From Nitrospinota bacterium (GTDB taxonomy: Bacteria > Nitrospinota_A > UBA7883 > JACRGQ01), in contig JACRGQ010000044.1 of assembly GCA_016217735.1 (NCBI GenBank), positions 1 to 37,052 on the forward strand: a stretch of DNA of 37,052 bases. Direction: 5' to 3'. The first letter of the stretch is position 1. Every line of letters starts with the position of its first letter. Under the pieces are notes generated by a model. It was not told where the DNA came from and made no database searches. It saw only the letters and a program-made list of their open reading frames with translations. Position numbers and translations under genes: made by a program. Of this stretch, positions 1 to 27,924 are shown one piece after another.

Positions 1-68
1 GAACGGATAATTTCCTGTTGAACGGCTATCTTCATTATTTCAGCGTCCTTGATTTCCAGTTTTCTCAT
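1..68 (-). CDS. Start of a possible IS630-type transposase (partial, runs off left edge)
   Basis: A minus-strand ATG at 68 opens a frame of 22 codons that continues past the window edge without a stop. A good ribosome site (AGGGGG) lies about 6 bases upstream. The peptide starts MRKLEIKDAEIMK and continues AVQQEII. From memory this resembles the N-terminus of winged-helix transposases of the IS630 group, but 22 residues is too little to prove it. The neighbouring AT-rich gene and the broken cobO remnant fit a mobile-element context. It could equally be the start of an unrelated small protein. Confidence 0.35.
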   Translation of the reverse strand, partial: MRKLEIKDAEIMKIAVQQEIIR

Positions 69-121
69 GGCTTGCCCCCTTTTGGTGCAGGATAAACCAT
101 TTTGCAGTTATGCGCAATTAC

Positions 122-2383
122 TTATGTCGCTATGTATAGAAGCCGATTTTTATACATCCAAAGCTCGTCGGGCACTTTTGTCTTAGCAAGATGGTTTAAG
201 AGGTAATCCTCAATCTGACTCTCAACAGCCGCTCTATATTCTTTATATTTTTGGGATTCATTTCGGTCTATCCATTCTCTTGAAAGTGATAGTTTTATGT
301 TCCCCCTTAAATCAAACCTGCGATTAATGCTTTTTTCGATGTAACGGCGTCGGAGGTCTAAGGCGAGATTCAGCCCCTGAATACATTCCACATCTCCAAT
401 CAGTGGAAGACGCTCTTGGTGGGGGTGGTTCCTAAAATAGGTTTCCATCCAATTTGCAGATTTAATTTCGATCCATTCCCTATGTCTATATAAATAGAAA
501 TATAATTCCCCTTCAAATCCATCCCCCTTCATGGGTACTGCGTCGATTTCAAAAAAAGCCCCTGCCTCGTCTGCCACCAGTACTTTTGCAATAAAGTCCT
601 CAGGCCGTTCAGCCTTTATCTCATGCTTTCCTCCTGGGCTGTCTATGTAAATTGGAAATTCAACGCGAAGGCATAATTTGCGCACTTGGGCAAACCCCCT
701 CCTTACTCGAAGTACTCGATCAGCCCCACTAGCATCTAGCCCGTTCATTAAGCGGACTTTTACTTTAGTTCCGCTCTTGCGCCGTTCACCCTCTTCCAAA
801 AGAATGAAAGACTGATACCCGCCTAAAGTAACTTTCAAATTGTTATGTACACTGCCGGAAGAATCCTTATAAGTCTCTACCTCAACATGGTCACTCGCCG
901 CAAACACCGAAAGAAAACCAACGCCGAACCGGCTCATTGGAATAAACTGAAATTTACTTCTAAACTCGTCTGTTACATAGTAGGAGCGGCCTGCTTGAAG
1001 AAAAAAACGGTGAAGGATTTCATCATCCATCCCAATGCCAGAATCTTCTATCTCAAAGACCTGATGGGTTTCAGTCCTATTTGCAAGGATATTTGGCACC
1101 TCTTCCTCATACCATCTAATATTTATGGGGTATTTCTGCCGTACGTCTTCTGGTACTTCCGTTGGGCATTTGGGCAGATCCTTGCCGTCACTTTTCAGAT
1201 CGAGATACATTTTGCAACGATTCGCATCCAAAGCATTTTGGATCAGTTCCCGGGCAAATGCAGATGGGTCGGCATATGCATCGCGTATCAATCGCTCAAA
1301 TATCGCCTTTTGATCAAGCTCAAATTTCCAGTCAAATGGGATATATTTTGCCGCAACGCTGCGGCCAATATTAATGGTTGCGCCTTCACCTTCCAGCTTT
1401 ATTATTGGTTTTTTCCATTCTTTATGCCTAGCGGCATTTTGCATGACTGATCCCGCGTCATTTACCTCATCCACCAGCCATTTGCACCACGACATGAGGA
1501 GTCTGTGTTCTTCTGGTGTATCACATTTTGCTGTTATCTCTATTTTGTCGGTCGCGGTCAGGCGGTGTACTATTTTTTGGTGTTTACTCCAGTGTGCATA
1601 ACTGGTGGACGGAAGCGGTGAAGCGGCATTTAGCAACAAGGGACAAGCACGGTCGTTACTGATGTCCAACAGGTCGCCAATGCGTAGCAAATAAGATAAG
1701 AACCGAAGGTTTACGATATCCCCTCTGATGTCTGTTCTTTCAGGATATCGATCCTTGTTTTCCAGATCGGCACGGTCAAGACCATGGGCCAAGCAGACAT
1801 CGCTAATAGCTTTTTTTAAGTTGGGATCGTCAAAGCCGAACTGGGCAAGGCTTTGTTCGTGCTGCGTAATCAATCTTGCAGATCGCGTATGGTGTTCCCT
1901 TCTCAAATATTCCGCGATAATCTGCCGCAAATAGACATTTGAATAATACTTCTGCTCTTCGTTAGTAGCCTTATCCTCCATCGCGCATATTTCTTTGTAG
2001 TCACTCGCTGCTTGTCCCCCTTCACCAACCCATTTCTTCCACCCTTCCGAGCTAAGGATTTTCGCCTTTTCATCGTTGGAAACCACCATCCCCGCATCGT
2101 GAAGATAAGCAGCAGCTATTAAAATATATACCTCCACGGCTGATAGCTGTACGGCCGGTTTTTCGAAATTACGTTCTATAAACAGAAGGCAGGAAAGCTG
2201 GCGGATGATCTCCTCACTATGCTCAATAGTGTGGGCCGTATAATGCTCAAAAGTGGGAATGGTGTACGAAAGCCAAAGTCCTACTTTCATTTTCAGTTCG
2301 GACAGTTTGCCTACATAGGATTTATCGTGATCTATTTTACTTAGATACTTCCAAAGAGCGGTGTTTTTAACGTCACCCGGCAT
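122..2383 (-). CDS. HD-domain plus HSP90-like ATPase fusion protein
   Basis: A 753-aa cytoplasmic protein with two recognisable parts. The N-terminal third looks like an HD metal-phosphohydrolase domain: H51/H55 in HTIEH, the H95-D96 doublet in YLHDAG, a second histidine pair near 164-165, and a late aspartate near 237 in LLRIGDLLD. The middle is a GHKL/HSP90-type ATPase: ELIQNALDA (E379, N383, D386), DSGIGM (447-452) and FGVGFLSVF (486-494). The last 250 residues lack the recognisable HSP90 dimer region. The start is set by GGAGGGG just upstream of ATG 2383. Codon usage is much more AT-rich than the downstream genes, and the gene lies between a transposase-like start and a gene remnant, so transfer is likely. 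HSP90-like ATPases fused to other enzymatic domains occur in prokaryotic defence loci. A defence role here is inference only. Confidence 0.8.
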   Translation of the reverse strand: MPGDVKNTALWKYLSKIDHDKSYVGKLSELKMKVGLWLSYTIPTFEHYTAHTIEHSEEIIRQLSCLLFIERNFEKPAVQLSAVEVYILIAAAYLHDAGMVVSNDEKAKILSSEGWKKWVGEGGQAASDYKEICAMEDKATNEEQKYYSNVYLRQIIAEYLRREHHTRSARLITQHEQSLAQFGFDDPNLKKAISDVCLAHGLDRADLENKDRYPERTDIRGDIVNLRFLSYLLRIGDLLDISNDRACPLLLNAASPLPSTSYAHWSKHQKIVHRLTATDKIEITAKCDTPEEHRLLMSWCKWLVDEVNDAGSVMQNAARHKEWKKPIIKLEGEGATINIGRSVAAKYIPFDWKFELDQKAIFERLIRDAYADPSAFARELIQNALDANRCKMYLDLKSDGKDLPKCPTEVPEDVRQKYPINIRWYEEEVPNILANRTETHQVFEIEDSGIGMDDEILHRFFLQAGRSYYVTDEFRSKFQFIPMSRFGVGFLSVFAASDHVEVETYKDSSGSVHNNLKVTLGGYQSFILLEEGERRKSGTKVKVRLMNGLDASGADRVLRVRRGFAQVRKLCLRVEFPIYIDSPGGKHEIKAERPEDFIAKVLVADEAGAFFEIDAVPMKGDGFEGELYFYLYRHREWIEIKSANWMETYFRNHPHQERLPLIGDVECIQGLNLALDLRRRYIEKSINRRFDLRGNIKLSLSREWIDRNESQKYKEYRAAVESQIEDYLLNHLAKTKVPDELWMYKNRLLYIAT

Positions 2384-2516
2384 TTACCCCTCCCACACAT
2401 TTACGGAGAACAAGGTTGCTTGATGCTTCCATCACCCTGTTTACAATGATATTTATGCTATGCCATCCGGCATATGCAGTCAAGAAATCCATGTTATTCA
2501 GTCAACTTTTTGTGGG

Positions 2517-2660
2517 TCAAAAGTCGAGTCCCTTTTGGGCGGAGATGCCGGCCTCATACGGGTGCTTGATAGAATCGATATTGCTCACCATGTCGGCCAG
2601 CGCAATCAGCTCCGGCGTTGCGCCGCGCCCGGCAAGAATAAGGTGCGTGGCGGTGTCATG
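2517..2660 (-). pseudogene. cobO: C-terminal remnant of cob(I)yrinic acid a,c-diamide adenosyltransferase
   Basis: Reading the minus strand from 2660 to the TGA at 2517-2519 gives 47 codons with the closing pattern of CobO/BtuR corrinoid adenosyltransferases. It contains THLILAGRGATPELI, then ALADMVSNID, then IKHPYEAGISAQKGLDF and a stop. The family normally ends HLVLTGR..PPELIE.AD.VTEM..VKHPY..GI.AQKGIEF. The roughly 130-150 upstream residues carrying the P-loop are absent: above 2660 the frame no longer looks like CobO. The natural stop is intact, so this is a 5'-truncated relic, not a functional gene. Confidence 0.75.
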
Positions 2661-3053
2661 CCGGGCTTGACTTGGGAGCGGCGAAATATAATGGAGCCTG
2701 CCGCGTACAAACCGTCGCGGAGGTACCCTTCAAAGGTACGGCACCCGGAAATATTTCCAAAGCTTTCTTCCTCCGGTGGGCATAAATCTGTTGAGTTGAA
2801 ATGCTATAAAGCAAGACCCCGTCCCGCCCGCCAATAAAGCCCGGCGTTAAGATCACAGATCATCGGGGCGCTGTTGGCGAATATCCATGCAAGAAAGCTC
2901 ATGCCTTGCGTTGAGCAGCGCGCCGCTGAATTCCAATACCGCTATCCAGTGCGCCGCGAACCATGCGGTCATCAGCCTCCGCTCCCCATAAAAATTTCGG
3001 CGATGCAATGTGAAGCGCCATTATGCGCATTTCGCGGGTTCCAGCCGCCGCCG
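2661..3053. other. Decayed or non-coding stretch between cobO relic and hydrolase gene
   Basis: No intact gene is visible in these 393 bases. On the minus strand, fragments look protein-like but sit in different frames. One is GYLRDGLYAAGSIIF (about 2,690-2,740). Another is a 39-aa frame at 2853-2972 that starts MTAWFAAHWIAVLEFSGALL behind a good ribosome site (GGAGG) and then stops. The pattern fits a gene broken by frameshifts. I cannot name the family. Confidence 0.4.
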
Positions 3054-3920
3054 TCACGGCAGCGCGGCAAGCCACGCCAAAAGCCGGGGGCGATACGCGC
3101 CCCCGTTCACATGAAAAGCCTCGATATGCCCGCCGCCGGGGATCTCCCAATATTCCTTTGGATCGCGCGCCAGTTCAAAGATCCTGCGCCCGTGTGAAAC
3201 CGGCACCACCGCATCGGCATCGCCATGCACCACCAGCAGCGGCACCGGCGCGATGGATGCGATATGCCGTTCGGGCGAATACTCGTCCGACACCAGCAAC
3301 AGGCCGAGCCACTGCATCGGCCACGTGAGCCACCACTGCGCCAGCTTCTGCCGCGCGATGGCCTGGTAGGAATAAAACCCCGCCTCTTCAATCACGCCGC
3401 TCAGCCGCGCCTTTTCTTCAAAATCCGCCAACGCCCGCGCCAGCGCCGCCCCGCCCAGCGATTGCCCGTAGGCTATCACCTTCAGCCGGCGCCCGATGTT
3501 CCGTTCCCGTTCGCGCGTGAGCTGCATTCCCGCCTCAAGCGCCGCCACTATGTCGCCATTGACATGCGCGGGAGTGGCCACCCCTTCCGACGCGCCATAC
3601 CCTTCGTAGTCGAACACAAAAAGGTTGTACCCCTCCTTCGCCAGCCACGCGACGTTCATGAAGTGCGCCGTCATGTTCTGCGCATTGCCGTGGCAGTGGA
3701 TGATCGTCCCCTTCTCTTCCGTCCCTTCGGCGGCGGGTATCCACCATCCTCCCAGTTGCGCGCCGCCCGGAGCGGTGAAGATATATTCGCGGTACGGAAG
3801 CCCCGCCTCGACCGGCGTGGCGTAAAGCCTGCCCGCCGGCTGGTAAAAAACGCCGGTGCAGGCCGGCACGGCCAGAAGAAAGGCCATCGTGACGGCGGCG
3901 AGTGCGAAGCGTTTGCGCAT
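3054..3920 (-). CDS. Alpha/beta-hydrolase lipoprotein (BEM46/ABHD13-like)
   Basis: A serine hydrolase of the alpha/beta fold, probably anchored to a membrane as a lipoprotein. Numbered from the ATG at 3920, residues 1-21 form a signal peptide (MRKRF, a hydrophobic core, then a lipobox-like VPAC with Cys21). The oxyanion region is HCHGNAQN (about 75-82). The nucleophile lies in GQSLGG (Ser154), the acid near GDADAVVP (Asp234/236), and the histidine in GGGHIEA (His265). Layout and length (288 aa) match BEM46-type hydrolases of unknown substrate. A TTG 18 bases further upstream (3938) could also serve as start, but the ATG gives a cleaner signal peptide. Nearest neighbours give no pathway clue. 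Confidence 0.8.
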   Translation of the reverse strand: MRKRFALAAVTMAFLLAVPACTGVFYQPAGRLYATPVEAGLPYREYIFTAPGGAQLGGWWIPAAEGTEEKGTIIHCHGNAQNMTAHFMNVAWLAKEGYNLFVFDYEGYGASEGVATPAHVNGDIVAALEAGMQLTRERERNIGRRLKVIAYGQSLGGAALARALADFEEKARLSGVIEEAGFYSYQAIARQKLAQWWLTWPMQWLGLLLVSDEYSPERHIASIAPVPLLVVHGDADAVVPVSHGRRIFELARDPKEYWEIPGGGHIEAFHVNGGAYRPRLLAWLAALP

Positions 3921-4136
3921 GCGCCTATTATGAAGCAATTTCCGGGGTTAACCCGCTTTATTCACCGAATATAGCGGGAAAACCGTCAAGCTTTTGAAAA
4001 GGCGCGGCGGCGAAGCATTTTTCGCGGGAAACATATTGACAGTATGTTGACCAAGAAAAATGCAAGCCAACGCGATAATTTTCAAAAGATCGACGGTTTC
4101 CGGATTATGAACGGCAACGCCGTGAATAATCCGGAG

Positions 4137-4511
4137 TTATTCCGCTTTGGCCTTTTCCAGCTTGAGCAGCAGGCGGATCGCCTGTTGCGTTTCACCGGAG
4201 GCCTTGCGGTAGGCTTCCACCAGCGCCCGCTCGGCGGGAGCCATCGGCGGACCGTATTTTTTCCGCACGTCGGCCACCGCCTTGGAATACTGATCCGGGT
4301 TGCGCCCGGTCAAAATCCAGTCCACGGTGACAAACCCGCGCGCCGCAATCCAAAAAAGATAGCTGGGGGGCGGATAGGCCATTCCCCGCTCGCAACGGGA
4401 AACCATGTCCTGCGATACGCCGGCCTCCGCGGCGGCGGCCTCCTGCGAAACATCCCCCCGCAGTTTTTTGAGGCGCTTCCCCACCTCGGCCAGATTCACC
4501 GCGCCGGACAC
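4137..4511 (-). CDS. XRE-family HTH transcriptional regulator
   Basis: A small DNA-binding protein of about 124 aa. The N-terminal half is a Cro/CI-type helix-turn-helix: VGKRLKKLRGDVSQEAAAAEAG, then VSQDMVSRCERG. The following DWILTG segment is common in phage-repressor-like XRE proteins. The C-terminal half (about 70-124) is a helical extension rich in Ala, Lys and Glu. I prefer the GTG at 4511 because a GGGGG ribosome site sits 4 bases upstream; another GTG exists at 4529. It is transcribed divergently from the CI-like gene at 4732, and a perfect 14-bp palindrome lies between them, which suggests autoregulation. Confidence 0.8.
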   Translation of the reverse strand: MSGAVNLAEVGKRLKKLRGDVSQEAAAAEAGVSQDMVSRCERGMAYPPPSYLFWIAARGFVTVDWILTGRNPDQYSKAVADVRKKYGPPMAPAERALVEAYRKASGETQQAIRLLLKLEKAKAE

Positions 4512-4555
4512 CAAACCCCCGCTACGCACATGGAATTATTTATCGCTTGACTTTT

Positions 4556-4569
4556 ACGCATATATGCGT
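4556..4569. promoter_or_regulatory. Perfect 14-bp palindrome, probable operator
   Basis: ACGCATATATGCGT is self-complementary over its full length. It lies about 45 bases upstream of the XRE gene start, in the space between the two divergent HTH genes. Placement and symmetry suit a dimeric HTH repressor, most simply the XRE protein itself. No binding data are available. Confidence 0.5.
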
Positions 4570-4628
4570 TTAACTCCACCACATGGGACGCCGCACGGTT
4601 TTATTATTACTACTTTCACCTCCCCCTT

Positions 4629-4662
4629 CCCCGTCCTCCGCGGAGGGCCGGAGGGGACGGGG
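4629..4662. repeat. GC-rich imperfect hairpin in divergent intergenic region
   Basis: CCCCGTCCTCC (4629-4639) can pair with GGAGGGGACGGGG (4650-4662), with a two-base bulge. It is followed by an AT-rich run. The C/G composition resembles the intergenic palindromes at 5571 and 29,820-29,900. It may be a repeat module or may act as a terminator; the sequence does not decide. Confidence 0.4.
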
Positions 4663-4731
4663 TAAATTATATACTTTATTTTCCATCATTCATAACCATG
4701 TCCGCCAAACCAACCATCCGGGAGAAATACC

Positions 4732-5118
4732 ATGACAGAAACGTTCAAGTACCGTCTCCAGGTGCTCATGAAAGGGGATCGCCCCTATACCTTCGCGCGC
4801 AAATGCGGCATCGAGAAAGGGCTGTTTCAGAACTACTGGCAAAAAGGGAAAATCCCCACCTATGAAAACCTGCTTAAGCTGCAAAGGGGCACCGGCTGCT
4901 CCATTGACTGGCTGCTCACCGGCCAGATACCGGCGCTGGAAGGAAGGATGGACAAACTGCGGTTTGTTGATTCCGGCGCCGAAACCGGCGCCCGCCAGCG
5001 CCGCTTCGTGCATACGGCGCTCATGCTCCGCAAAATCTTCCTGAACGCTCCCGAACGGGATATCACGGCGGTGGAGCTTCTGCTGAACTGCGTGCTGCGG
5101 CAGGCCACGCGCCGCTGA
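4732..5118 (+). CDS. Phage CI repressor-like HTH protein
   Basis: A 128-aa protein whose first 65 residues resemble the bacteriophage CI repressor N-terminal domain. YTFARKCGIEKGLFQNYW is the helix-turn-helix with its recognition helix, then GKIPTYENLLKLQ, then GCSIDWLLTG. The rest (70-128) is a basic helical tail with no peptidase domain, so it is not a LexA/CI self-cleaving repressor. The ribosome site GGGAGA is 6 bases before ATG 4732. It is divergent from the XRE gene at 4137-4511 and shares the DWLLTG/DWILTG element with it, so the two may form a switch pair. No other phage genes are nearby. Confidence 0.75.
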   Translation: MTETFKYRLQVLMKGDRPYTFARKCGIEKGLFQNYWQKGKIPTYENLLKLQRGTGCSIDWLLTGQIPALEGRMDKLRFVDSGAETGARQRRFVHTALMLRKIFLNAPERDITAVELLLNCVLRQATRR

Positions 5119-5128
5119 CGGCGCGGCG

Positions 5129-5159
5129 CGCCTCGCGGATGCCGGGCCGCCGCGAGGCG
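5129..5159 (+). terminator. Strong hairpin after CI-like gene
   Basis: CGCCTCGCGG (5129-5138) pairs perfectly with CCGCGAGGCG (5150-5159) around an 11-base loop, 10 bases after the stop codon at 5118. There is no clean T-run, only ACTTTTG a few bases on. It is a plausible but non-canonical terminator. Confidence 0.5.
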
Positions 5160-5247
5160 GCATGACTTTTGTGATACCTCCCCGCCCGTCCATGCGCTAT
5201 ATTTGCCCCTGCAATACCGCCGACACCATAATTGTGAGGGAATGCCG

Positions 5248-5547
5248 ATGGAAAAAATAACGCTGTCCGAACGTACCCGGTTTAACCCCATCTTCCAGCC
5301 GCAGATACTCCGCATGGCGGATGGCCTGAAAGTGCCGCTCATCTGCATGAACCCCGGCCAGTTCATCCCGCCCCACCCCGGCGGCACGGGGGTCTTTTAC
5401 ATCGTCGAAGGCAAGGCAACCATGACGATAGAGGGAAAAGATATCGCGGTATCGGCGGGCGACATGATATTCATCGAAAAGGGCGAAACCCGCGGCATCC
5501 AAGCGGTGGAAAAGCTGACCGCCTTCGCCGTCCACATCACCGGCTGA
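5248..5547 (+). CDS. Small cupin-domain protein
   Basis: A 99-aa single-domain beta-barrel protein of the cupin superfamily. It shows the first cupin motif in degenerate form (PGQFIPPHPGGTGVFYIVEGKATM) and the second as AGDMIFIEKGETRGI. The usual two-histidine motif 1 is reduced to a single histidine (PPHPGG), so metal binding and enzymatic activity are uncertain; it may bind a ligand or act as a sensor. The second of two nearby ATGs is preferred because GAGGGA is then 6 bases upstream. It stands alone between two hairpins, convergent with pyruvate kinase. Confidence 0.8.
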   Translation: MEKITLSERTRFNPIFQPQILRMADGLKVPLICMNPGQFIPPHPGGTGVFYIVEGKATMTIEGKDIAVSAGDMIFIEKGETRGIQAVEKLTAFAVHITG

Positions 5548-5570
5548 CAATTTTTCCCGGATTCCGAATT

Positions 5571-5596
5571 CTCCTCCCCTCATGTGAGGGGAGGAG
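5571..5596. terminator. Perfect 12-bp-arm hairpin between convergent genes
   Basis: CTCCTCCCCTCA (5571-5582) is followed two bases later by its exact reverse complement (5585-5596). It sits between the stop of the cupin gene (5547) and the stop of the convergent pyruvate kinase gene (5607), where a bidirectional terminator is expected. It lacks a long U tract, so it may instead be a dispersed palindromic repeat. Confidence 0.6.
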
Positions 5597-5606
5597 TGAG
5601 GCGGAG

Positions 5607-7037
5607 TTACGGGACGATCTCGACGCGCACCATGTTGGGCGCGGTGGGGCCGTCCATCCGCATACCGGAAACCAGCACCAGCCTGTTCCCCGTCTCCACC
5701 AATCCGCGCCGCTTGAGCTGCGCCAGCATGCCGGGCAGGCTTTGCGCTATCTCATTGCCGAATTTCTGCAAAAACGGCACCGCGCCGCGCACCAACGCCA
5801 GCTTGCGCAACGTATAATCGTAGCGCGTGAAGGCGAATAGCGGCGTGTTCGGGTGCAGGACGGCGATCTGCTTCACCATGTAGCCGCTGTCGGTTACCAC
5901 CATGATGCCGGAGGCGTCCAAAATGTCGGCCAAGCTCACGGCGGCGCGCGCAACGGCGTGGTTCACCTCGGTGATCTTATCGCGGGAAATATCCCAAGAG
6001 AGCACCCTGGCCTTATCGTGGTGGTAGCGTTCCATCTCTATCGCCGCGCCAGCCATCACCCGCACGCACTCTTCCGGATAACGCCCCACCGCCGTCTCGC
6101 CCGAAAGCATCAGCGCGTCGGCGTACGAATGCACCGCCACGCTCACATCCGAAATGTCGGCGCGCGTGGGCCGGGGGCTGTTCAGCATCGACTCCATCAT
6201 TTGCGTCGCCACGATCACCGGCTTGCCCGCGGCGCAGCACTTGTGGATTATGTCCCGCTGGATCACCGGCACCTGCACCAGCGGCATCTCGACGCCAAGG
6301 TCGCCGCGCGCCACCATGATCGCGCCCGAGGCCTCGATGATCGCATCTATGTTCCGCACCGCCTCGTGCCGCTCGATTTTTGCCACCACCTCGGCGTGCG
6401 AACCGGCGTGGGCAATCAGCTTTTTAAGCCGCAGCACATCATCCGCCTCGCGCACAAACGAAAGCGCCACATAGTCCACCCCCTCCGCCAAACCGGCCTT
6501 GAGGTCGCGCAAATCTTTTTCGGCAATGGGATCGGCGCTGATGGAAGCTTCCGGCAGGTTGATCCCTTTCTTGTTCTTCAAAGTGCCGCCGTTCAATACC
6601 TTGGCGTGGACGATGCCCCCCTTCTTTTCAACCACCTGAAGGGCCATTTTGCCATCGTCCAAAAGCACCCGGTTTCCCTTTGCCACGTCGCCATAAAACC
6701 CCTGATACTGCACGGGAATAAAGGAACCATCACTGACCGCGCTGGAAACCTTCAAGAGGACTTCTTTGCCATCGCGCAAGTCCGTTTCACCGGCGGCGAA
6801 TTCCCCCACGCGGATTTTGGGGCCGCCCAGATCGAGCAACACGGCGGCATGATAGCTGGTCGCTTTAGAGCCTTTCCGCACGTTGCGTATCTGGCGGCGG
6901 ATCTCCTCGGGTGAAGCGTGCGATGAATTGATGCGAAAGACGTTCGCCCCCGCGGCGATAAGCCGTTTGACCGCGGCGGGGCCGTCGGACGCAGGCCCCA
7001 GCGTAGCAATAATTTTTGTTTGTTTCATCACGCCCAT
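5607..7037 (-). CDS. pyk: Pyruvate kinase
   Basis: Catalyses phosphoenolpyruvate + ADP to pyruvate + ATP, the last step of glycolysis, in the cytoplasm. The 476-aa protein is full length for the family. The start shows TKIIATLGP (7-15). The active-site arginine is R35 in FRINSSH, where the common NFSHG has become NSSHA. GGPKIR (71-76), the metal/phosphate site VAKIE (K220, E222), ARGDLGVEMP (D246) and VATQMMESM (T278) are all present. The start ATG at 7037 has GGGGAGGAA 7 bases upstream. It lies 88 bp downstream of znuB on the same strand, but a TTGACG element in that gap suggests its own promoter. A hairpin at 5571-5596 lies after the stop. Confidence 0.96.
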   Translation of the reverse strand: MGVMKQTKIIATLGPASDGPAAVKRLIAAGANVFRINSSHASPEEIRRQIRNVRKGSKATSYHAAVLLDLGGPKIRVGEFAAGETDLRDGKEVLLKVSSAVSDGSFIPVQYQGFYGDVAKGNRVLLDDGKMALQVVEKKGGIVHAKVLNGGTLKNKKGINLPEASISADPIAEKDLRDLKAGLAEGVDYVALSFVREADDVLRLKKLIAHAGSHAEVVAKIERHEAVRNIDAIIEASGAIMVARGDLGVEMPLVQVPVIQRDIIHKCCAAGKPVIVATQMMESMLNSPRPTRADISDVSVAVHSYADALMLSGETAVGRYPEECVRVMAGAAIEMERYHHDKARVLSWDISRDKITEVNHAVARAAVSLADILDASGIMVVTDSGYMVKQIAVLHPNTPLFAFTRYDYTLRKLALVRGAVPFLQKFGNEIAQSLPGMLAQLKRRGLVETGNRLVLVSGMRMDGPTAPNMVRVEIVP

Positions 7038-7059
7038 ACCGCGTTCCTCCCCGGTTCAA

Positions 7060-7090
7060 GCCATAGCGAAAAGAACTCCCACTACGTCAA
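7060..7090 (-). promoter_or_regulatory. Possible sigma70 promoter of pyk
   Basis: On the minus strand TTGACG (7085-7090) is followed after 18-19 bases by CTATGG/TATGGC (7060-7066), about 25 bases before the pyk start. The -35 is good. The -10 and spacing are weak. Confidence 0.35.
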
Positions 7091-7125
7091 GTGTAACCCG
7101 AAAACGGCCCATGCGGCAAAAGGAG

Positions 7126-7935
7126 TTACAGTTGCGCGCCGAACCTTTTTAAGGGGAATGAGAGAAAGAAGAAAATGATGTTCACCAGCACGATGGCCGC
7201 GCCGCCGGGGATATTGCCATAAAACGAAAGCGCCATCCCGGCGATCACCGAAACCACCCCCAGCAGCGCGGCTATCGCCATCGTGACGCGAAAACCGCGC
7301 CCAAGCTGGATGGCGGTGACCGCCGGAATTATCACCAGCGCCGACGTAAGGAGCATCCCGACAATCTTGATGGTAAGCACCACCGCCACCGAGGTGAGCA
7401 ACGCCAGCAGGGTGTTTATGTAGCCGGTATTCACGCCGGAGACGGCGGCGAACTCCTCGTCGAATGAAACCGAAAGCAATGGGCGGTGGTAATACAGCAT
7501 GACCCCCGCCACCGCCACCGAAAGCGCCGCCGAGAGGTACATCTCCGCCGCGCCGATGGCTAAAATATTGCCGAACAGGTAGCTGAAGATGTCGACGTTA
7601 AAACCGCCGCCGTACGAGGCGAGGATGATCCCTCCCGCCACTCCGGCGGCCGACACCATGCCGATGGCCGCGTCGCCATAAAGCCGCGCCCGCTGCGCCA
7701 GCTTGAGAATGCCCAGCGAACTGGCCATCACCACCGGGATCGCCACAAACACCGGCGTGGCCCGCAGAAGCAGCCCGACGGCAACGCCGAAAAAGGATAC
7801 ATGCGCCAGTCCGTCGCCGATGAGCGATAGCCGCCGCAGCACCAGCACCACTCCCAGCATGGAGCAGATCACCGCCACGCAGCAGCCGGCCGCCAGTCCG
7901 CGCCAGACGAAACTATACGTTAAAAACTCAGCCAT
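7126..7935 (-). CDS. znuB: Zinc ABC transporter permease
   Basis: Membrane-spanning permease of the ABC-3 (zinc/manganese) family, 269 aa with about eight or nine hydrophobic helices. Recognisable family pieces are FVWRGLAAGCCVAVICSMLG at the start, LVLRRLSLIGDGLAHVSFFG (about 30-50), the DEEFAAVSGV loop (about 160) and IKIVGMLLTSALVIIPA (about 185-205). It would pair with the ATPase encoded just upstream (stop-to-start gap of 15 bp). Linkage to a Fur-type regulator favours zinc, though manganese cannot be excluded from sequence. No periplasmic substrate-binding protein gene is present in the window. Confidence 0.9.
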   Translation of the reverse strand: MAEFLTYSFVWRGLAAGCCVAVICSMLGVVLVLRRLSLIGDGLAHVSFFGVAVGLLLRATPVFVAIPVVMASSLGILKLAQRARLYGDAAIGMVSAAGVAGGIILASYGGGFNVDIFSYLFGNILAIGAAEMYLSAALSVAVAGVMLYYHRPLLSVSFDEEFAAVSGVNTGYINTLLALLTSVAVVLTIKIVGMLLTSALVIIPAVTAIQLGRGFRVTMAIAALLGVVSVIAGMALSFYGNIPGGAAIVLVNIIFFFLSFPLKRFGAQL

Positions 7936-7950
7936 AATTTCAATCCGGGT

Positions 7951-8700
7951 TCAATCATGCCGGTGGCAGATCACGTGCTGGCTGTATTCGCCGAAGTACT
8001 TTTTCATGTCGCCCGATCCGCAGAAATCGTTAAAGCCGCCGTGGAAAACCACTTTCTTGTCGAGGTAGAGCATTTGCGAAGCGTATTTGCCGATGGTGCC
8101 GATGTCGTGCGTCACCAGCACCACAGTTGTCTTCAGATCACGGTTGAGCGCCTCCAGCGTGGCATAAAACCGTTCGCGCGTTTCGGGGTCGAGCGCGGTG
8201 GTCGGCTCGTCCAGCAGCAGGATATCGGGGCGCCCGGCGATGGCGCGCGCCAGCAGCACCCGTTGCAACTGCCCGCCCGAAAGCTCGCCGATGAGCTTAT
8301 CCTTGATGCCGCCGATGTCCAGCAGGCCGAGCGCATCCTCCACCGCCGCGGTTTCGGCCGCGCGCTCCATCTTGCGCGAAAGAAGGCCCAGCGCCACGAT
8401 CTCGCCCACGGTCGCGGGGAAATACGGATTGAAATGCGAAATTTTCTGCGGCAGGTAACCGATGCGGGGCCACTCGCGGAAATCGGCGCGCTTGCGGCCG
8501 AGAAACCAGACCTCCCCGGCGGCGGCCTGCTTGAGGCCGAGCATCGCTTTTATCAGGGTGCTCTTGCCGCTGCCGTTCGGCCCCACGAGGCCAAGATAGG
8601 CGCCTTTGGCGACGCTGAACGTGATGTCGTCCAGCGCCACGCGGCTGTTGTAACTGACGGTAAGCCCCGTCACGGCGATGGCGCTGTTTTGGATGTCCAT
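7951..8700 (-). CDS. znuC: Zinc ABC transporter ATP-binding protein
   Basis: Cytoplasmic ATPase of a metal-uptake ABC transporter, 249 aa. It has Walker A GPNGSGKST (about 36-44), a Q-loop at LPQK, signature LSGGQLQR, Walker B ILLLDEPT and switch histidine VTHD. The ATG at 8700 overlaps the stop of the upstream Fur-family gene by one base (TGATG), so the two are translationally coupled. The frame is open much further upstream (to 9009), but that part overlaps the regulator and is not coding. The C-terminus ends in a histidine-bearing CHRHD, which may bind metal. It forms an operon with znuB. Confidence 0.93.
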   Translation of the reverse strand: MDIQNSAIAVTGLTVSYNSRVALDDITFSVAKGAYLGLVGPNGSGKSTLIKAMLGLKQAAAGEVWFLGRKRADFREWPRIGYLPQKISHFNPYFPATVGEIVALGLLSRKMERAAETAAVEDALGLLDIGGIKDKLIGELSGGQLQRVLLARAIAGRPDILLLDEPTTALDPETRERFYATLEALNRDLKTTVVLVTHDIGTIGKYASQMLYLDKKVVFHGGFNDFCGSGDMKKYFGEYSQHVICHRHD

Positions 8701-9131
8701 CACTGTTTTCCCGCGCAGCCGCCGCAAAGGCCGTTCACCTGCAGGATGTGCGATGTGACGGTTCCCTTGATGCGGCGCTTGATATCCCTTTCCATCTCGC
8801 GCACCGCGCAGACCGAAAGGTCCTCCACCATATGGCACTCCATGCAGACAAAGTGGTGATGGTGCCCCGCTTTGGGGCAGAAGTAGTAGTAGAGCTGCCG
8901 GTTGGAATGCAGCACTTTTGAAATGACGCCGTGGCGTTCCAGCTCTTCCATGTTGCGGTAGACGGTGGGCAGGCCGAGACTTTTGAATCGGCGCTTGAGT
9001 TTTTTCCATATCTCTTCGGGACTCAGGTAGCGGTGCTCTTCTTCCAAAACCGACAGCAAGGCCAGCCGCTTGGGCGTGGCTTTCAGCCCGAGGTTTTTAA
9101 GGAGCGCCGGATAATCGGTGTGTGTTTTCAT
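8700..9131 (-). CDS. zur: Fur-family metalloregulator, probably Zur
   Basis: A 143-aa Fur-superfamily repressor. The winged helix covers about 1-80 with the recognition segment LGLPTVYRNMEELERHGVI. The dimerisation/metal domain shows HHHHFVCMECH (H90-H93, C96, C99) and CGGC (C136, C139), the classic structural zinc cysteines. Its position as the first gene of an operon with znuC and znuB makes zinc the likely signal, but Fur or PerR specificity cannot be excluded by motif alone. The start ATG at 9131 overlaps a 25-bp palindrome by two bases and has no ribosome site, pointing to a very short leader and tight autoregulation. Confidence 0.85.
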   Translation of the reverse strand: MKTHTDYPALLKNLGLKATPKRLALLSVLEEEHRYLSPEEIWKKLKRRFKSLGLPTVYRNMEELERHGVISKVLHSNRQLYYYFCPKAGHHHHFVCMECHMVEDLSVCAVREMERDIKRRIKGTVTSHILQVNGLCGGCAGKQ

Positions 9132-9154
9132 AAATAGAAATGATTTCTATTTAT
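9130..9154. promoter_or_regulatory. 25-bp perfect palindrome, probable Zur operator
   Basis: Twelve-base arms (9130-9141 and 9143-9154) match exactly around one central base. The core GAAATGATTTC resembles Fur/Zur-family boxes. It covers the first two bases of the zur start codon and most of the -10 element, so a bound repressor would block RNA polymerase directly. Confidence 0.75.
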
Positions 9155-9178
9155 ACCCCTCTCCCGCCCGATAGTCAA
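9150..9178 (-). promoter_or_regulatory. sigma70 promoter of zur-znuC-znuB
   Basis: On the minus strand TTGACT (9173-9178) is followed by exactly 17 bases and TATAAA (9150-9155). The predicted transcript start lies only about 10-12 bases before the zur ATG, leaving no room for a Shine-Dalgarno site. Confidence 0.7.
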
Positions 9179-9179
9179 T

Positions 9180-9761
9180 CTATGGGCGGAAGTAATCCGG
9201 TTCGTTGCCCGGTTTCCATTTGATGTTGCAGCCCATGCCGGGACGCTGCTCGCCGGCGACTTCCGTGCCGCCCAACACCGCATCCAGCGCGCGGCGCACG
9301 TCCACGCCCGTAACCGGGATGTTGCCGCCGGGACGGCTGGCATCCATCTGTCCCCGGTAAACAAGCTTTTGGTTCCCGTCAAATACGTAAAATTCCGGCG
9401 TGCAGGCGGCGCGGTAGGCTTTCGCCACCGCTTGCGATTCGTCGAACAGGTAGGGAAAAACGTAACCCGCGGCTTTCGCCTCCCGTGCCATGTTGGCGGG
9501 ACTGTCATCGGAATATTTTTCCGCGTCGTTGCTGTTGATGCCGGCCACCGCCACCCCTTTGGCCATGTACTCCTTCGTCAGCGCGGCCAGTTCTTTGCCA
9601 ACGTGTTTCACGTAGGGACAGTGGTTGCACATGAAGATGACCAGCAATGCTTGTGCGGCGTTGAAATCGTTTAGCGAAACGGCGCGGCCGCCGGCGTCTT
9701 TCAGCGAAAAAGACGGAGCCTTGGTGCCGAGCGGCAGCATGGTGGAAGCGGTGAGAACCAT
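9180..9761 (-). CDS. Thioredoxin-fold redox protein (AhpC/TSA-like)
   Basis: A 193-aa thioredoxin-fold protein of the peroxiredoxin-like 1 group. It has the entry motif LGTKAPSFSLKDAGG (11-25) and an active-site FMCNHCPYVKH with the pair C45/C48. The family also keeps GINSNDAEKYSDDSP in the middle and CTPEFYVFD (cis-proline region) later. No signal peptide is obvious, so it is probably cytoplasmic. It starts 19 bp after the DUF255 gene that also carries a CxxC thioredoxin domain, so it is the last gene of the hsp20-lon-... run. The substrate is unknown. Confidence 0.85.
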   Translation of the reverse strand: MVLTASTMLPLGTKAPSFSLKDAGGRAVSLNDFNAAQALLVIFMCNHCPYVKHVGKELAALTKEYMAKGVAVAGINSNDAEKYSDDSPANMAREAKAAGYVFPYLFDESQAVAKAYRAACTPEFYVFDGNQKLVYRGQMDASRPGGNIPVTGVDVRRALDAVLGGTEVAGEQRPGMGCNIKWKPGNEPDYFRP

Positions 9762-9780
9762 AATCTCCTCCTTCGGTGAA

Positions 9781-11862
<2,082 letters not shown>

Positions 11863-11913
11863 ACATTCAATTATCCCCCATATGCGGAGAGCGCGGCACG
11901 CGAAAAAAACTCG

Positions 11914-12588
11914 TCAGATGTGGACGGGCGGGGGAGCCGGCTGTTCGGCCAGCTTCTGGAGTCCCGCCAGCTTGCGGTAGGCGGCGAACGTGGCAATATA
12001 GGTGACCGGTATGCTGACGAAAAGACCGACCAGAAGGCAGAGCGCCCCCAACAGATTCACCACCACCATGGCGCAAAGGAAAAAAATAAAGCCGATGGTA
12101 TCCTGCCGCACCAGTTGGCGGCTCGCCTCCATCGCCCGCCAAAAGCCGAACCCCCGGTCGGCGATAAAAAGGAAGGTGAACAGATACCACGCCATAACGA
12201 TAATGCCGGGGATGATAAGCAGGATGAATCCGATGATGGAAAAGAAGGTGACGGCCAAATTCGCGGCAAGGGCCGGAAGGAAAAATTTGAATCCCTCGAA
12301 AAGACGCCAGACGTTAAAAGCACGGCCAAGCGCCATATCGGCCACGACCAGATAGAAGCCAATGGTAAGGGGGCCGGCGATCAAAAGTCCCGCCAGCGGA
12401 ATATTGGCGGCGATGATCAACAGTATGCCGAAAATGGCGGTAACCAGCATGAAGACCAGCGGCTCCGTTTTAAAAATCCGCCACCCTTCGCGCAACCAGC
12501 CGGCGATATCGACCACGCCGTGTGGCCGCGCCGCCGGAGGTTCCATCGTCTTTATTTCCGGTGCCGGCCCCGCCTGATCTTCAGTCAT
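11914..12588 (-). CDS. Polytopic membrane protein of unknown function
   Basis: A 224-aa integral membrane protein with about five or six helices (roughly 43-62, 65-88, 105-135, 135-150, 170-200). The cytoplasmic N-terminus ends in an amphipathic WLREGWRIFKTEP. That lead-in and the Pro-Gly kinks (LLIIPGIIVMAW) are typical of the DUF975/DUF4013-like membrane families, but I cannot assign one with certainty. It starts 9 bp after lon, with GGGGGAG in the gap, so co-translation with lon is likely. A role in membrane proteostasis is suggested only by this neighbourhood. Confidence 0.7.
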   Translation of the reverse strand: MTEDQAGPAPEIKTMEPPAARPHGVVDIAGWLREGWRIFKTEPLVFMLVTAIFGILLIIAANIPLAGLLIAGPLTIGFYLVVADMALGRAFNVWRLFEGFKFFLPALAANLAVTFFSIIGFILLIIPGIIVMAWYLFTFLFIADRGFGFWRAMEASRQLVRQDTIGFIFFLCAMVVVNLLGALCLLVGLFVSIPVTYIATFAAYRKLAGLQKLAEQPAPPPVHI

Positions 12589-12597
12589 ACGCTCCCC

Positions 12598-15031
<2,434 letters not shown>

Positions 15032-15039
<8 letters not shown>

Positions 15040-15490
15040 ATATGCGCACCTTTATGGTATGTGAGGGTTTCCTTCTCTCCGCGACTTTCGGCAGCTTCAG
15101 CGCCAAAATGCCGTTTTTGCACTCCGCTTCGATATTCCGCTGATCCACCGCCGCGCCCAGCGTGAAGGTTCGTTTGAATGAACCGAACGTCCGTTCAACG
15201 CAGTGGAAGGCGGCGGCTTTCCCCTGCATTGCGGGCTCCTTTTTCACTCCTTCAATGGTGAGAATATCATTGTAGACCGTCACGCTGATGTCTTTCGGGT
15301 TAACCCCGGACAGTTCCACCTCGACGTTGATCGCCTCGTCGTCCTCGCGGATGTCCATCGCCGCAAAGCCGATGTCGCGCAGATACGCGTCGGCGGCGTT
15401 GACGGCGGCTTCGCCGATATATTTCGGACGGAAAACAACATCTTCCCCCCGGCCCGCCTTTTTCTTTTCTTTCCTGTCCCGTTCGCCCAT
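15032..15490 (-). CDS. Hsp20/alpha-crystallin small heat-shock protein
   Basis: A 152-aa ATP-independent holdase chaperone. The alpha-crystallin domain runs from about 45 to 140: [19 protein letters not shown], then [19 protein letters not shown], then [13 protein letters not shown]. It ends in the [13 protein letters not shown] signature. The N-terminus (1-20) is strongly charged. The C-terminal IxI-type element is replaced by IKVRIYE. It overlaps lon by 8 bp and is the first gene of the proteostasis run. No CIRCE element or clear heat-shock sigma box was seen upstream, and the ribosome site is weak. Confidence 0.92.
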
Positions 15491-15573
15491 TGCAATTGAA
15501 AGTCTACCATATCAACAGGAACGTTTTTTGACGGTTTGCGCGGCGCGCGCACGGCCCGGCGGCGGAACCGGCG

Positions 15574-17292
15574 TTAAAGAAACCGCCGCACGCACCGGAT
15601 AAACTCCTCTTCGATAACCGGCTTCTCCAGAAAATCGCTGGCGCCAATCGCCAAAAGTTCTTCGCGGAGCTTTTGCACGGCCTCCCGGCCCGCCCCCCGG
15701 TTCGAGGTGACGACAACGACCGGGATATCCCTGAAGCGGGGATCGCCGCGGACCGCGCTCAACAACGCGATGCCGTTCATCTCCGGCATTTCGATATCGG
15801 TGATAATCAGGTTGGGGGTGGAGCGCCGCAGTTCTTCCAGCGCATCGCGGCCGTTTTCGGCCTCGGCCACCGTCACATCCCCCACCTTCGCCAGCGCCCG
15901 CTTGAAGATGGCGCGGTGCGCCTCCAAGTCGTCCACCACCAGCGCCGTCCGGCCGGTCAGCGGCAAGCGGATGATGAAGGTGCTCCCCTCCCCCGGCCGC
16001 GAATCGGCCTCTATCGCGCCGCCGTGCGCCTTCATAATGTCCATGCAGAACGGCAGGCCAAGGCCGGTTCCCCGCTCGCCGCCCGTCCCCACCGTGGAGG
16101 TCTTTACCTCGTGCCGGAAAATATCCCCCACCACCCCGGGCGGGATGCCGATGCCGCGGTCTTCGATGGCGACCGCAAATGCCCCTTCCGCCGCGGGCGC
16201 GTATATCCGTATGACGCCGCCGGGACGGCTGAACTTTATGGCGTTTGAAAGGAGATTGCCGATCACCTGCCCGTACAAGGCGCGGTCGGCCAATACGCGC
16301 GCATCCTCTGGCAATTCGTTGCGGATGGCGATATTCTTCTGTTCCGCCGCCGGGGCGGCCATGAGCATCCGCTCCGCGGCGAGTTGCCGCACGAAAAACG
16401 TGCGGTTGATCGGCGTGATTTTCCCGGTCTGCAGACGGCTGATATCGAGGAGCTGATCCAGCAAATCCAGCAGCGCCGCGGCGAGTTCTGAAATGGAGAC
16501 GACGAGGCCGTCCGCCTTCTCCGCCCCATCCCCTTCCCGGAGCATCTGCCGGGTGAAATCAGCCGTCGACTTGATGCCCGCTATGGGTCCGCGGAGATCG
16601 TGCGAGACGAGCGAAACAAACTGATCCTTCAGGCGCGTCGCCTGACGCAGGTCCTCCACCAGCGCAAGATTTTTAAAATGAAGCGTGATGGATGAGGCAA
16701 TCGTCCGGTTGAGCCTGAATGAATAAAACCCGAGGGTCAGGATAAACAACGGCAATAACGTCCCGATGGCGTAGCCGAACAGGCCGCCGTCCATCAAGCC
16801 ACGCACGGCGAAAGGCAAGATGGCCGGAACCGTCCATAACAGCGGGGCGCTTTTTATCGATGAATGGGAAACGGTGGTGGTGGCCGCGAGCGTGGTCATA
16901 ACCAGAAGGAGCAATGACTGCATAACCTGATCGCCGGGCGGGAACAGCAAAATGGCCGACATGCCCCACAAAATTCCCGATACCAGCGTGCTGACTTCAT
17001 ACCGCCGCCGCCAGCTTTCACCGTCAAAAAACCCGTGCCCCGCGGCGTGGAACCAGACGTACAGGAAATACCGCGATACGGCAACCGCCGTTATCATCAG
17101 AACCCATGCCACCACCTGGGCATGCGGCACAAGATTCCAGTAGACCGCGGCGAGCACCACCGCAACCAGAAACGACGTCCCCTGCATCGGCGGTATCTGC
17201 CCGATGGCCAGGCGCATCTGCTCGCGCAGGACATCCCCGCGCGGGTCTCCCGGCAATGCGGCTCCATTCACCCTGTCGGCGGGATCGGACAT
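15574..17292 (-). CDS. Membrane hybrid histidine kinase with C-terminal receiver
   Basis: A 572-aa sensor. Residues 38-205 hold about six membrane helices with no large periplasmic loop, suggesting that it senses within or at the membrane. The HisKA box is SLVSHDLRGPI (His231). The ATPase has NLLSNAIKFS (N box), EDRGIGIP (D box) and RGTGLGLPFC (G2). A receiver from about 446 to 572 carries acidic DD (454-455), phospho-acceptor Asp499 in ITDIEMPEMNG, and Lys557 in EKP. It diverges from the cNMP/HDOD gene at 17640; the shared 340-bp region carries an inverted repeat and a structured leader. Output partner and stimulus are unknown. Confidence 0.92.
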   Translation of the reverse strand: MSDPADRVNGAALPGDPRGDVLREQMRLAIGQIPPMQGTSFLVAVVLAAVYWNLVPHAQVVAWVLMITAVAVSRYFLYVWFHAAGHGFFDGESWRRRYEVSTLVSGILWGMSAILLFPPGDQVMQSLLLLVMTTLAATTTVSHSSIKSAPLLWTVPAILPFAVRGLMDGGLFGYAIGTLLPLFILTLGFYSFRLNRTIASSITLHFKNLALVEDLRQATRLKDQFVSLVSHDLRGPIAGIKSTADFTRQMLREGDGAEKADGLVVSISELAAALLDLLDQLLDISRLQTGKITPINRTFFVRQLAAERMLMAAPAAEQKNIAIRNELPEDARVLADRALYGQVIGNLLSNAIKFSRPGGVIRIYAPAAEGAFAVAIEDRGIGIPPGVVGDIFRHEVKTSTVGTGGERGTGLGLPFCMDIMKAHGGAIEADSRPGEGSTFIIRLPLTGRTALVVDDLEAHRAIFKRALAKVGDVTVAEAENGRDALEELRRSTPNLIITDIEMPEMNGIALLSAVRGDPRFRDIPVVVVTSNRGAGREAVQKLREELLAIGASDFLEKPVIEEEFIRCVRRFL

Positions 17293-25466: not shown

Positions 25467-27524
25467 TCAGTCGGCGGTAACCTGATAAATCCGGTGCCTG
25501 CCCGGTATCCCCTTGAGTTCGAAAAAACCGATGAGCCGCGTTTTCGCCAGCCCGTTTTTTTCCAAGTCCTGTTTCACCGGCTCCGTCACCAAGATGCGGT
25601 TCAGCAACGGCATCTCTTCCGGTTTCATGCCCCCCTCGTCCGGTATCAGATCCTTCGGCTTGACCCCTTCCACGCGGAAGGTCATGTTCACGGCGGTTCC
25701 CAGCCGGTCTCCCTTGTCGTCGATGCGGGTTTCCCCCACGTTGATGGCGATGCGCACGTCGATCCGCTCCTGGGGGGGATGGGCGGCGTTGCTTTTCTTC
25801 AGGGTATCGAGGATATCCCGCGCAAAATTAACCGCGTGGGCGATTTCGTTGAAGGCCATAAGGTAACCGTCGCCGGTGCTCTTGGTGAAGCGGGCGCGGT
25901 GCTTGGTGGAAAGCGGCTTCGTTTCCTCCACCAAACGGTTCGTCAGCCGGAAAGCGAATTCATCGCCGTATTTCGCGCCGATATCGGTGCTGTTGGCGAG
26001 ATCCAGCACAAGGATCGCCTCCACCCGCACGCGCGCCCCATCCATAAACGGGCTGGTGAAAATGGTGCTGCCGCCGGACCATTTTTCACGCGTTTGCTCG
26101 GCAATGATCTGGTTCGCCTTCACGGCATGGCCGGTCATGTCCTTTATGATTTGAAGGGCCAGGTCGCGGATGTCGCCGTCGCTGTCTTTCACGGATGCCT
26201 TGATGACGCCGAGGGTATTCTTGTCCTTTATTTTCCCCAGCGATTTGAGCGCCTCCATCCGGACGTTGCGCTCCGGATCGTCCATGAAATCGCACAGGTG
26301 CTCCACCGCCAGCGCGCCGCCGATATCCCCCAGCGCCTGCGGCACCACCCAGCGAACGTCGTAGTCGTTCCGCAGTTCCATCACCAGGTCGATGGCCCGT
26401 TCGTCCCGCAGTTTGCCCAGGGCGGAAACCGCCTTTTCGCGCACCCACCAGTCCGGGTCTTTCAACACCGCCGCCAGCGCGTCGAAGGTGGCGGGATCCG
26501 GCAGGCGGTTGAAATATTCCACCGCGGCGCGGCGGACGTTTTCGTCGGGGCTGGCGAACAGCTCCCGCACCCGGCTTCCCACCTCCGGCTTATTCACCAG
26601 CGCCAACGCGTCGATGGCGATCTCGCGCACCCACCAGTCGGAGTCCTGTATGCACCGTATGAGCGTCTCGGCGGAATCGACGCTCTTGAGCTTGCTCAGA
26701 ATTTCCACTCCCGCGCGGCGCACGTTCACATCCGCCTCGCGCATGGAATTGATGATCTCCGGCACCAGCGATTCATCGGCGATATTCTCCAGCGCCTCCA
26801 CCACCATCTGGCGGACGACGAGGTCGTTATCGCCGATGCTGGAGAGGATGGCGCGCGCGGCGACGGCGTTCCCTATTTGCCCCAGCGTCTGGATAACGGT
26901 CATCTTTATCTTCGGATCCCGTTCCGCCTTCAGCAGATCGACCAACGGGCCGATACTGGCGGAATCCTTTACCTTGCAAATGGCCTCCACCGCCTTCTTG
27001 CGGAGCCACCAATCAGGCGAACTCATCAGCGGCATCAAATAACCCGCCGCTTGCGCCCCCCCCAGTTCCGCAATAAGTCCGATCACAATCCCTTTCAATT
27101 CCTTGTCGTTCTCTTGCAGGTACGGGGTGAGCTTATCGAGCGCGGCGGAAGAACCGATTTTTTTCAGAAGGTCGGCGATGCCGCGCCGGAGCATTACGTT
27201 CTGCTCTTTCAGCCTTTCGACAAGGCGGGGAATAGCGGTATGCGCGGCCTTCTTTTCCAGTATCCCGCGGGTAAGCGAGCGCACCAGTTCCTTGGGGTGT
27301 CCCAAAAGGCCGATGAAAAGCTCCATCTGCTCGCGTTCGTAAAAAGCGGTGAAACAGCGTTCGAAATCGGCATCGGTGATTTTATGCGCCACAAAGGCTT
27401 CCACCAGCGCATCAAGCCCATCCGCGCCATACGTGCGCAACGACCGCACATAGGGGCTGGTATCCTGCCCCGGCGAGCTGAGAATCTGGCTCACCAGCCG
27501 TTTTATTTTAAATCCGTCAAACAT
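25467..27524 (-). CDS. HEAT-repeat class III nucleotide cyclase
   Basis: A 685-aa soluble protein. Residues about 30-470 are tandem HEAT repeats of about 31 residues, several with the DWWVREKAV/DWWVREIAI helix pattern. Residues about 500-685 form a class III adenylate/guanylate cyclase catalytic domain: first metal Asp508 in VLDLANSTDIG, Lys548 and second metal Asp552 in TKSTGDGYLMAF, RIAINVGE (about 591), and transition-state Asn613/Arg617 in GTAVNMTFRV. The catalytic residues I can check are present, so activity is likely. A cyclase fused to a long HEAT scaffold is unusual. It follows a 43-aa membrane peptide with an 8-bp overlap and is followed 15 bp later by a cNMP-binding protein. Confidence 0.92.
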   Translation of the reverse strand: MFDGFKIKRLVSQILSSPGQDTSPYVRSLRTYGADGLDALVEAFVAHKITDADFERCFTAFYEREQMELFIGLLGHPKELVRSLTRGILEKKAAHTAIPRLVERLKEQNVMLRRGIADLLKKIGSSAALDKLTPYLQENDKELKGIVIGLIAELGGAQAAGYLMPLMSSPDWWLRKKAVEAICKVKDSASIGPLVDLLKAERDPKIKMTVIQTLGQIGNAVAARAILSSIGDNDLVVRQMVVEALENIADESLVPEIINSMREADVNVRRAGVEILSKLKSVDSAETLIRCIQDSDWWVREIAIDALALVNKPEVGSRVRELFASPDENVRRAAVEYFNRLPDPATFDALAAVLKDPDWWVREKAVSALGKLRDERAIDLVMELRNDYDVRWVVPQALGDIGGALAVEHLCDFMDDPERNVRMEALKSLGKIKDKNTLGVIKASVKDSDGDIRDLALQIIKDMTGHAVKANQIIAEQTREKWSGGSTIFTSPFMDGARVRVEAILVLDLANSTDIGAKYGDEFAFRLTNRLVEETKPLSTKHRARFTKSTGDGYLMAFNEIAHAVNFARDILDTLKKSNAAHPPQERIDVRIAINVGETRIDDKGDRLGTAVNMTFRVEGVKPKDLIPDEGGMKPEEMPLLNRILVTEPVKQDLEKNGLAKTRLIGFFELKGIPGRHRIYQVTAD

Positions 27525-27648
27525 GCTTTTCAGGATCGTCCGGCTTTGTCCAGCCTGCCGCCTTTTTCAGAAAACGCACCAGCATCCAAATGTTCACGAT
27601 TATTACAAAAACAACGATGCCAATGTACACCGTTGGCGAAAAATACAT
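27517..27648 (-). CDS. 43-aa single-span membrane protein, first gene of the cyclase operon
   Basis: A short frame with ATG at 27648, GGGAGAG 5 bases upstream, and a stop overlapping the cyclase start by 8 bp. The peptide is MYFSPTVYIG followed by a hydrophobic stretch (to about residue 27, ending WMLVRFL), then a charged tail KKAAGWTKPDDPEKHV. It is therefore a one-helix protein with a basic cytoplasmic side. Its ribosome site is far better than that of the cyclase, so it probably drives coupled translation. It may tether the soluble HEAT-cyclase to the membrane; that role is inferred. I do not recognise the family. Confidence 0.7.
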   Translation of the reverse strand: MYFSPTVYIGIVVFVIIVNIWMLVRFLKKAAGWTKPDDPEKHV

Positions 27649-27747
27649 CCGCGCTCTCCCATGATGATTCCGGTTACGGTCAAATGCCGCCTAACTGATA
27701 AAGTTTACCATAACCGCGGCGAAAAAAATGACGTCCCGTTTTTGTTG

Positions 27748-27866: not shown

Positions 27867-27924
27867 ATTTTTTTGTTCAACCGGTTGCGGAAGGCTGAAG
27901 GTATGTCAATCCCGGAAAGCGGCA

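Follow-up and report, generated by a model that had tools for sequence, protein, structure and literature searches.

The window analysed here, a stretch of 37,052 nucleotides, makes up the whole of contig C44 in the 2.53 Mb, 76-contig assembly of a Nitrospinota bacterium (G000). Near its left end the reverse strand carries an uninterrupted open reading frame of 753 codons (positions 122-2383), with a Shine-Dalgarno-like GGGAGGGG read from the sequence at 2387-2394 of the same strand, 3 bases from the ATG. The native part of this gene, as delimited by the reading frame, Pfam, an insertion sequence (IS) boundary and the AlphaFold model, comprises codons 1-749 (137-2383, reverse strand) and encodes three regions on that strand: (i), an HD-CE domain (residues 45-308; 1460-2251), which matches Pfam PF24391 at 169 bits against a cut-off of 27, over profile positions 1-262 of 263, and contains H51, H55, H95-D96, R161, H164, H200, D237 and R245; (ii), an Hsp90/GHKL N-terminal-type ATPase (residues 353-545; 749-1327) with E379, N383, D447xG449xG451, FGVGF at 486-490 and G538-T539, matched by HATPase_c_3 (PF13589) at 28.1 bits over residues 379-517; (iii), a region resembling the Hsp90 middle domain (residues 556-749; 137-718), which was recognised with Foldseek, has lower model confidence and includes R702. 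A sequence search of the PDB (phmmer) likewise matched residues 353-581 to TRAP1/Hsp90 with an E-value of about 1e-8 (9e-9). The first-pass annotation had described an HD phosphohydrolase fused to an HSP90-type ATPase and had proposed a structure search of the chain; Pfam places both domains, HD-CE first, in one chain, and the AlphaFold model of the native 749 residues (mean pLDDT 81.7, pTM 0.79) gives an Hsp90 N-terminal plus middle fold for the second half in Foldseek (409-475 columns aligned to TRAP1/Hsp90, E-values down to 9.6e-13), as does a full-length homologue. The key residues, said earlier to be kept in both halves, are invariant or nearly so in an alignment of 70 full-architecture homologues from about a dozen phyla, archaea included: each of the nine HD residues listed above is retained in 66-69 of 67-70 homologues, E379, N383, D447, G449, G451, G487, G489 and G538 are invariant (70/70), and D386 and T539 are invariant or nearly so across the same 70 rows. 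R702, in the segment SLSREWI, is arginine in 62 of 65 homologues and lysine in the other 3; by alignment and fold it would correspond to the catalytic-loop arginine of the Hsp90 middle domain.

The HD half had been taken for a nucleotide-cleaving enzyme. In the dNTPase sense, it would be an effector that depletes dNTPs as do SAMHD1, SpdGTPase and Clover CloA, and the Hsp90 half would act as its sensor; membership of the HD superfamily and the existence of anti-phage dNTPase effectors (PMC12265719) speak for this, but we consider it unlikely on several counts. In Clover CloA an HE dyad (H126/E129) follows soon after H117/D118, and defence dNTPases conserve this dyad (PMC12265719); no HxxE follows H95-D96 in the query (HDAGMVVSNDEKAK), and none is conserved there in the alignment of 70. 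The additional invariant histidines H51, H164 and H200 would better suit the multi-metal sites of phosphodiesterases, and when a profile of the HD domain was compared with the PDB, class I cyclic-nucleotide phosphodiesterases ranked first, with weak E-values (9e-4 for PDE6 to 0.07) and over the first motif region only. The HD activity is better termed phosphodiesterase-like than nucleotide-cleaving. These nearest solved sequence relatives, together with the HxxxH...HD...D spacing, are also what a signal-degrading phosphodiesterase would lead one to expect, that is, an HD domain that cleaves a cyclic or oligonucleotide messenger and makes the protein a regulator or stress switch, not a killing effector. 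We regard this too as improbable, given that the loci are single-gene, with no conserved nucleotidyltransferase partner, and that the phosphodiesterase matches are weak.

The 3' end of the gene is not its own. Read as its reverse complement, window 1-138 is an exact repeat of positions 10312-10449 of contig C22 of the same genome, where unrelated sequence precedes it, meaning that the last four codons of the open reading frame (YIAT, residues 750-753) and the stop (122-136, reverse strand) belong to the IS and are not native. The repeated stretch, read from 138, begins with TATACATAGCG. The left IS end occupies positions 1-136 (reverse strand) and holds the first codons of a transposase, which runs from position 68 down to the contig end at position 1; the transposase-like start noticed earlier beside the gene lies there, at 1-68 of the reverse strand. 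A TA dinucleotide at 137-138, the target site, separates it from the gene, and TA is likewise found next to the right end of the IS on C12. Left ends lie on two contigs (C22 and C44) and the opposite end on five others (C54, C12, C16, C35 and C8), where, turned round, it reads TATACACAGCG; an ungapped comparison of the two ends gives 24 matches in 33 positions. Judged from the TA target and the terminal repeats, the element would be IS630/Tc1-like; Pfam assigned no family to either end, including the 22-residue transposase stub. On this sequence evidence the gene is cut at its 3' side by an IS inserted at the TA, and the first-pass annotation, which had taken it as intact with its 3' end at 122, has to be corrected: the native part stops at 137. 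The element is multicopy, with TA-flanked, imperfect terminal repeats; many contig ends of the assembly fall at its copies, which probably account for a large part of the fragmentation of this genome.

The severed C-terminus can very probably be located. On C12, 304 codons at about 39% GC lie open in the required phase after the right end of the IS. Among the other four right-end flanks, two meet early stops in that phase (after 15-16 codons), a third has 96 open codons (47% GC), and the fourth is open at 60% GC and looks PAS/kinase-like by eye. The C12 frame contains NKRHPL, fitting an N..HP[LFI] motif near the C-termini of 8 homologues, and its score against a profile built from the C-termini of homologues is a weak 9.2 bits, where the highest of 200 shuffled versions reached 3.4; plain BLAST of the C12 fragment against the homologues gave nothing significant. 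The fragment is thus tied to the family by profile, motif and phase, and the C44 and C12 pieces were analysed separately. Of the traits that define the fusion subfamily, HD followed by GHKL/Hsp90 in one chain is present; the C-terminal extension has been split off by the IS, its probable remainder lying on C12. Could the truncated 753-residue protein nevertheless work as a short form, the HD and Hsp90 head being sufficient? Both of its enzymatic halves are complete, free of stops and modelled with high confidence, and one relative (L010), 44% identical, is 760 residues long. We give this a small chance: nearly all other long homologues extend well beyond this point or run off their contigs (relatives are about 820-1300 residues long, median 1025), L010 itself ends 101 bp before a contig end and may be cut too, and the query closes with residues that come from the IS. 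We hold instead that the copy in this genome lost its C-terminus and is probably inactive or misregulated.

In composition the gene stands apart, in agreement with the AT-rich patch reported earlier: the GC content of its native coding part is 44.5%, that of the remaining window 58.3%. Upstream lies a 3'-terminal fragment of cobO (about 2517-2657, reverse strand; Pfam CobA_CobO_BtuR, positions 127-172), so that the truncated cobO mentioned in the first-pass annotation does sit beside the gene. That the HD gene had cut it can be ruled out, since an intact cobO is found on contig C26 (10551-11069) and the fragment, 87% identical to it over 137 nt and 84% identical to the cobO of sister genomes, is a diverged duplicate. 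In the sister genome G003, cobO and an FAD-dependent oxidoreductase are convergent on one contig, about 5.7 kb apart; the same oxidoreductase flanks the C12 fragment in our genome, where the HD-HSP90 gene takes the place beside it and the cobO relic lies upstream. The cobO/oxidoreductase locus is rearranged or variable; it is surrounded by metabolic genes and so does not itself form a defence island. Elsewhere in the window, two small divergent helix-turn-helix regulators, one of them weakly like phage CI repressors, are encoded at 4137-4529 (reverse strand) and 4732-5118 (forward strand), and at about 27000-35500 the GC content drops a second time below that of the remaining contig, to 47-57%.

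Relatives were found by an alignment-based scan of GTDB genomes, which returned 325, of which 80 were kept; scans of genome contigs and viral contigs with the single protein had found none. No bona fide HD-HSP90 member was detected in 23 other genomes of the phylum, including those of the same family and class. One of them, G017, gave a single partial match (E-value 5e-4, 75 profile positions); HD-CE matches below the cut-off in the sister genomes G003, G005 and G010 were dropped because the longer family profile finds none, and HtpG matches in G040 and G028 were set aside as covering the ATPase part only. The closest kin are metagenome-assembled genomes of Pseudomonadota (44%) and Myxococcota (36%), grouped with the query at support 100, and Acidobacteria (47%) and Actinomycetales (38%) supplied fragments that are equally close in sequence. 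Across the tree, 12 phylum labels change 30 times, the minimum possible being 11. Within the Aeromonas family the full domain occurs in 1 of 75 genomes, with a partial match in one other; the Enterobacteriaceae and Aeromonas copies have no homologue by DNA similarity in 5,426 E. coli genomes. Copies are also carried by plasmids and by one contig filed as phage. Absence from the phylum, the mixed-phylum tree and the plasmid copies together form the pattern of a transferred accessory gene, and the HD-HSP90 family is such a mobile gene, patchy across phyla; the horizontal transfer proposed earlier from composition is supported by the 23 phylum genomes that have no bona fide copy and by nearest relatives that belong to other phyla. 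An ordinary, vertically inherited housekeeping chaperone of the Hsp90/HtpG type with an accessory domain, to which the Hsp90 fold and sub-threshold HtpG-family matches might point, is highly improbable, as the curated HtpG/HSP90 models score 48.9 and 57.8 bits against cut-offs of 371 and 455 and the gene is missing from all other genomes of the class, is extremely patchy and mixes phyla in its tree.

Some individual copies have features of their own. The contig filed as bacteriophage, from human feces (L009; MT837299.1), encodes a 1257-residue member at 483-4256, with ORFs for an AAA-type ATPase (407 residues) and a 278-residue protein downstream, from 4553 and 5701; the cluster looks defence-like, on a possible phage or mobile contig. 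Two divergent family genes lie at 6146-9901 (reverse strand) and 9998-12892 (forward strand) of L046, and several stand side by side, tandem or fragmented, at 6648-14980 of L067. On an Aliarcobacter plasmid (L007) the family gene is apparently split within the ATPase domain (ORFs 11878-13092 and 13137-14699), which may be another decayed copy.

The neighbourhoods of the homologues bear on function. In Rhodocyclus tenuis (L026), the gene (9938-13057) lies between Wadjet JetBCD (595-5886) and the PADLOC candidate PDC-S06 (13291-15861); a Pantoea plasmid copy is downstream of GajA/GajB (Gabija), a Niallia copy comes after a methyltransferase/specificity-type restriction-modification (RM) protein, an Aliarcobacter plasmid copy is near Shedu and RM genes, a Hymenobacter plasmid copy near recombinases and AbiEii, and a Lachnospira eligens plasmid copy near an Abi protein, while an Acidobacteria relative adjoins a resolvase and an integrase. 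The commonest Pfam families among the 150 nearest neighbours were phage integrase, N6 methylase, resolvase, DDE transposase and HsdR (Type I RM); around pyruvate kinase in the same genomes, taken as a control, they were phosphofructokinase, acetyl-CoA carboxylase, ketoacyl synthase and similar genes of glycolysis and lipid metabolism. PADLOC families matched numbered 240 against 100 in the control, with 150 neighbours each, a contrast that we take as supportive in a qualitative sense, many of the models being redundant. Many neighbours of the homologues are ordinary or unknown genes; Wadjet, Gabija, Shedu, RM systems or integrases stand beside several intact copies. The first-pass annotation had named core, vertically inherited homologues that never lie near defence genes as the pattern that would speak against a defence role; the pattern found is clearly a different one.

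A defence reading of the family is therefore plausible, and on balance we lean towards an immune switch that is encoded by one gene and gated by ATP, with an HD phosphodiesterase under the control of an Hsp90-type clamp; the copy described here is very probably a broken one. On this view, the window preserves the 5' three quarters of a one-gene system that was acquired. Its intact relatives carry an HD phosphodiesterase-like domain at the N-terminus, followed by an Hsp90-type ATPase (N-terminal and middle domains) and a variable C-terminal region. The C-terminal/middle region may meet an infection cue, upon which the Hsp90-like half would bind ATP and close as a clamp, probably as a dimer; closure, aided by the middle-domain arginine, would switch on the HD metal centre, which could hydrolyse phosphodiester bonds in nucleic acid or in a cyclic or oligonucleotide, and phage growth would thereby stop, perhaps at the cost of the cell. 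In the genome studied, IS insertion at the TA would have detached the final ~304 codons, which now lie on C12, from the part encoding HD and ATPase. We infer the anti-phage role, the clamp mechanism, its trigger, the HD substrate and the pairing of C44 with C12. More generally, and only as a tentative proposal, the family could be a single-protein immune sensor-effector of bacteria and archaea in which an Hsp90-type clamp, in place of a STAND/NLR module or a nucleotide messenger, detects the infection cue and triggers, by allostery, an HD nuclease of the phosphodiesterase type.

Should the family work in the way proposed, bacteria would have, besides NLR-like and CBASS-type switches, Hsp90-type clamps as a further means of sensing phages, and the link between ATP-driven clamp closure and the HD enzyme would be testable. 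Members occur in about a dozen phyla, and the literature searched seems to contain no test of them. The copy studied here is in effect a knock-out made by nature: an accessory gene was acquired by transfer and later disrupted by an IS, as is typical of dispensable, costly immune genes. Disruption of the gene by the IS is new here; the HD-CE/Hsp90 domain family was already known.

Compared with known systems, PADLOC has no model for the HD-HSP90 family itself, and neither a tested biochemical function for the sequence-defined HD-CE family nor a tested HD-CE/HSP90 protein was found in the open literature; subscription papers were mostly outside its scope, and an earlier description elsewhere is possible. 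With the HD-CE family (PF24391) the protein shares nearly the full profile and the HD residues, the metal residues H55, H95, D96, H164, H200 and D237 being present in the query and in at least 66 of 67-70 rows, while the copy here is without its native C-terminus. Clover and SpdGTPase have in common with it an HD-superfamily metal enzyme as a possible effector, and differ in the HE dyad and the nucleotidyltransferase partner that the query does not have. With class I cyclic-nucleotide phosphodiesterases (PDE5/6/9, PDEB1) it shares the HxxxH...HD motif region; the match covers only about 67 residues, and R161, H164 and R245 are extra, family-specific residues of the query. Like Hsp90, HtpG and TRAP1, it has a GHKL ATP site, lid glycines, the middle-domain fold and, by the presumed equivalence of R702, the arginine; unlike them, it is fused to an HD enzyme and has another C-terminal region. 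Viral structural matches to the Hsp90-like half include phage RIIA proteins, and these matches lie in the ATPase/Hsp90 part. A link to a defence model lies in the HD half: residues 47-282 match positions 698-913 of the PADLOC model RT_UG24 (DRT UG24) with an E-value of 2e-21, in its HD part only, meaning that the same type of HD domain occurs in a candidate defence reverse transcriptase; Pfam finds no reverse transcriptase domain in the query.
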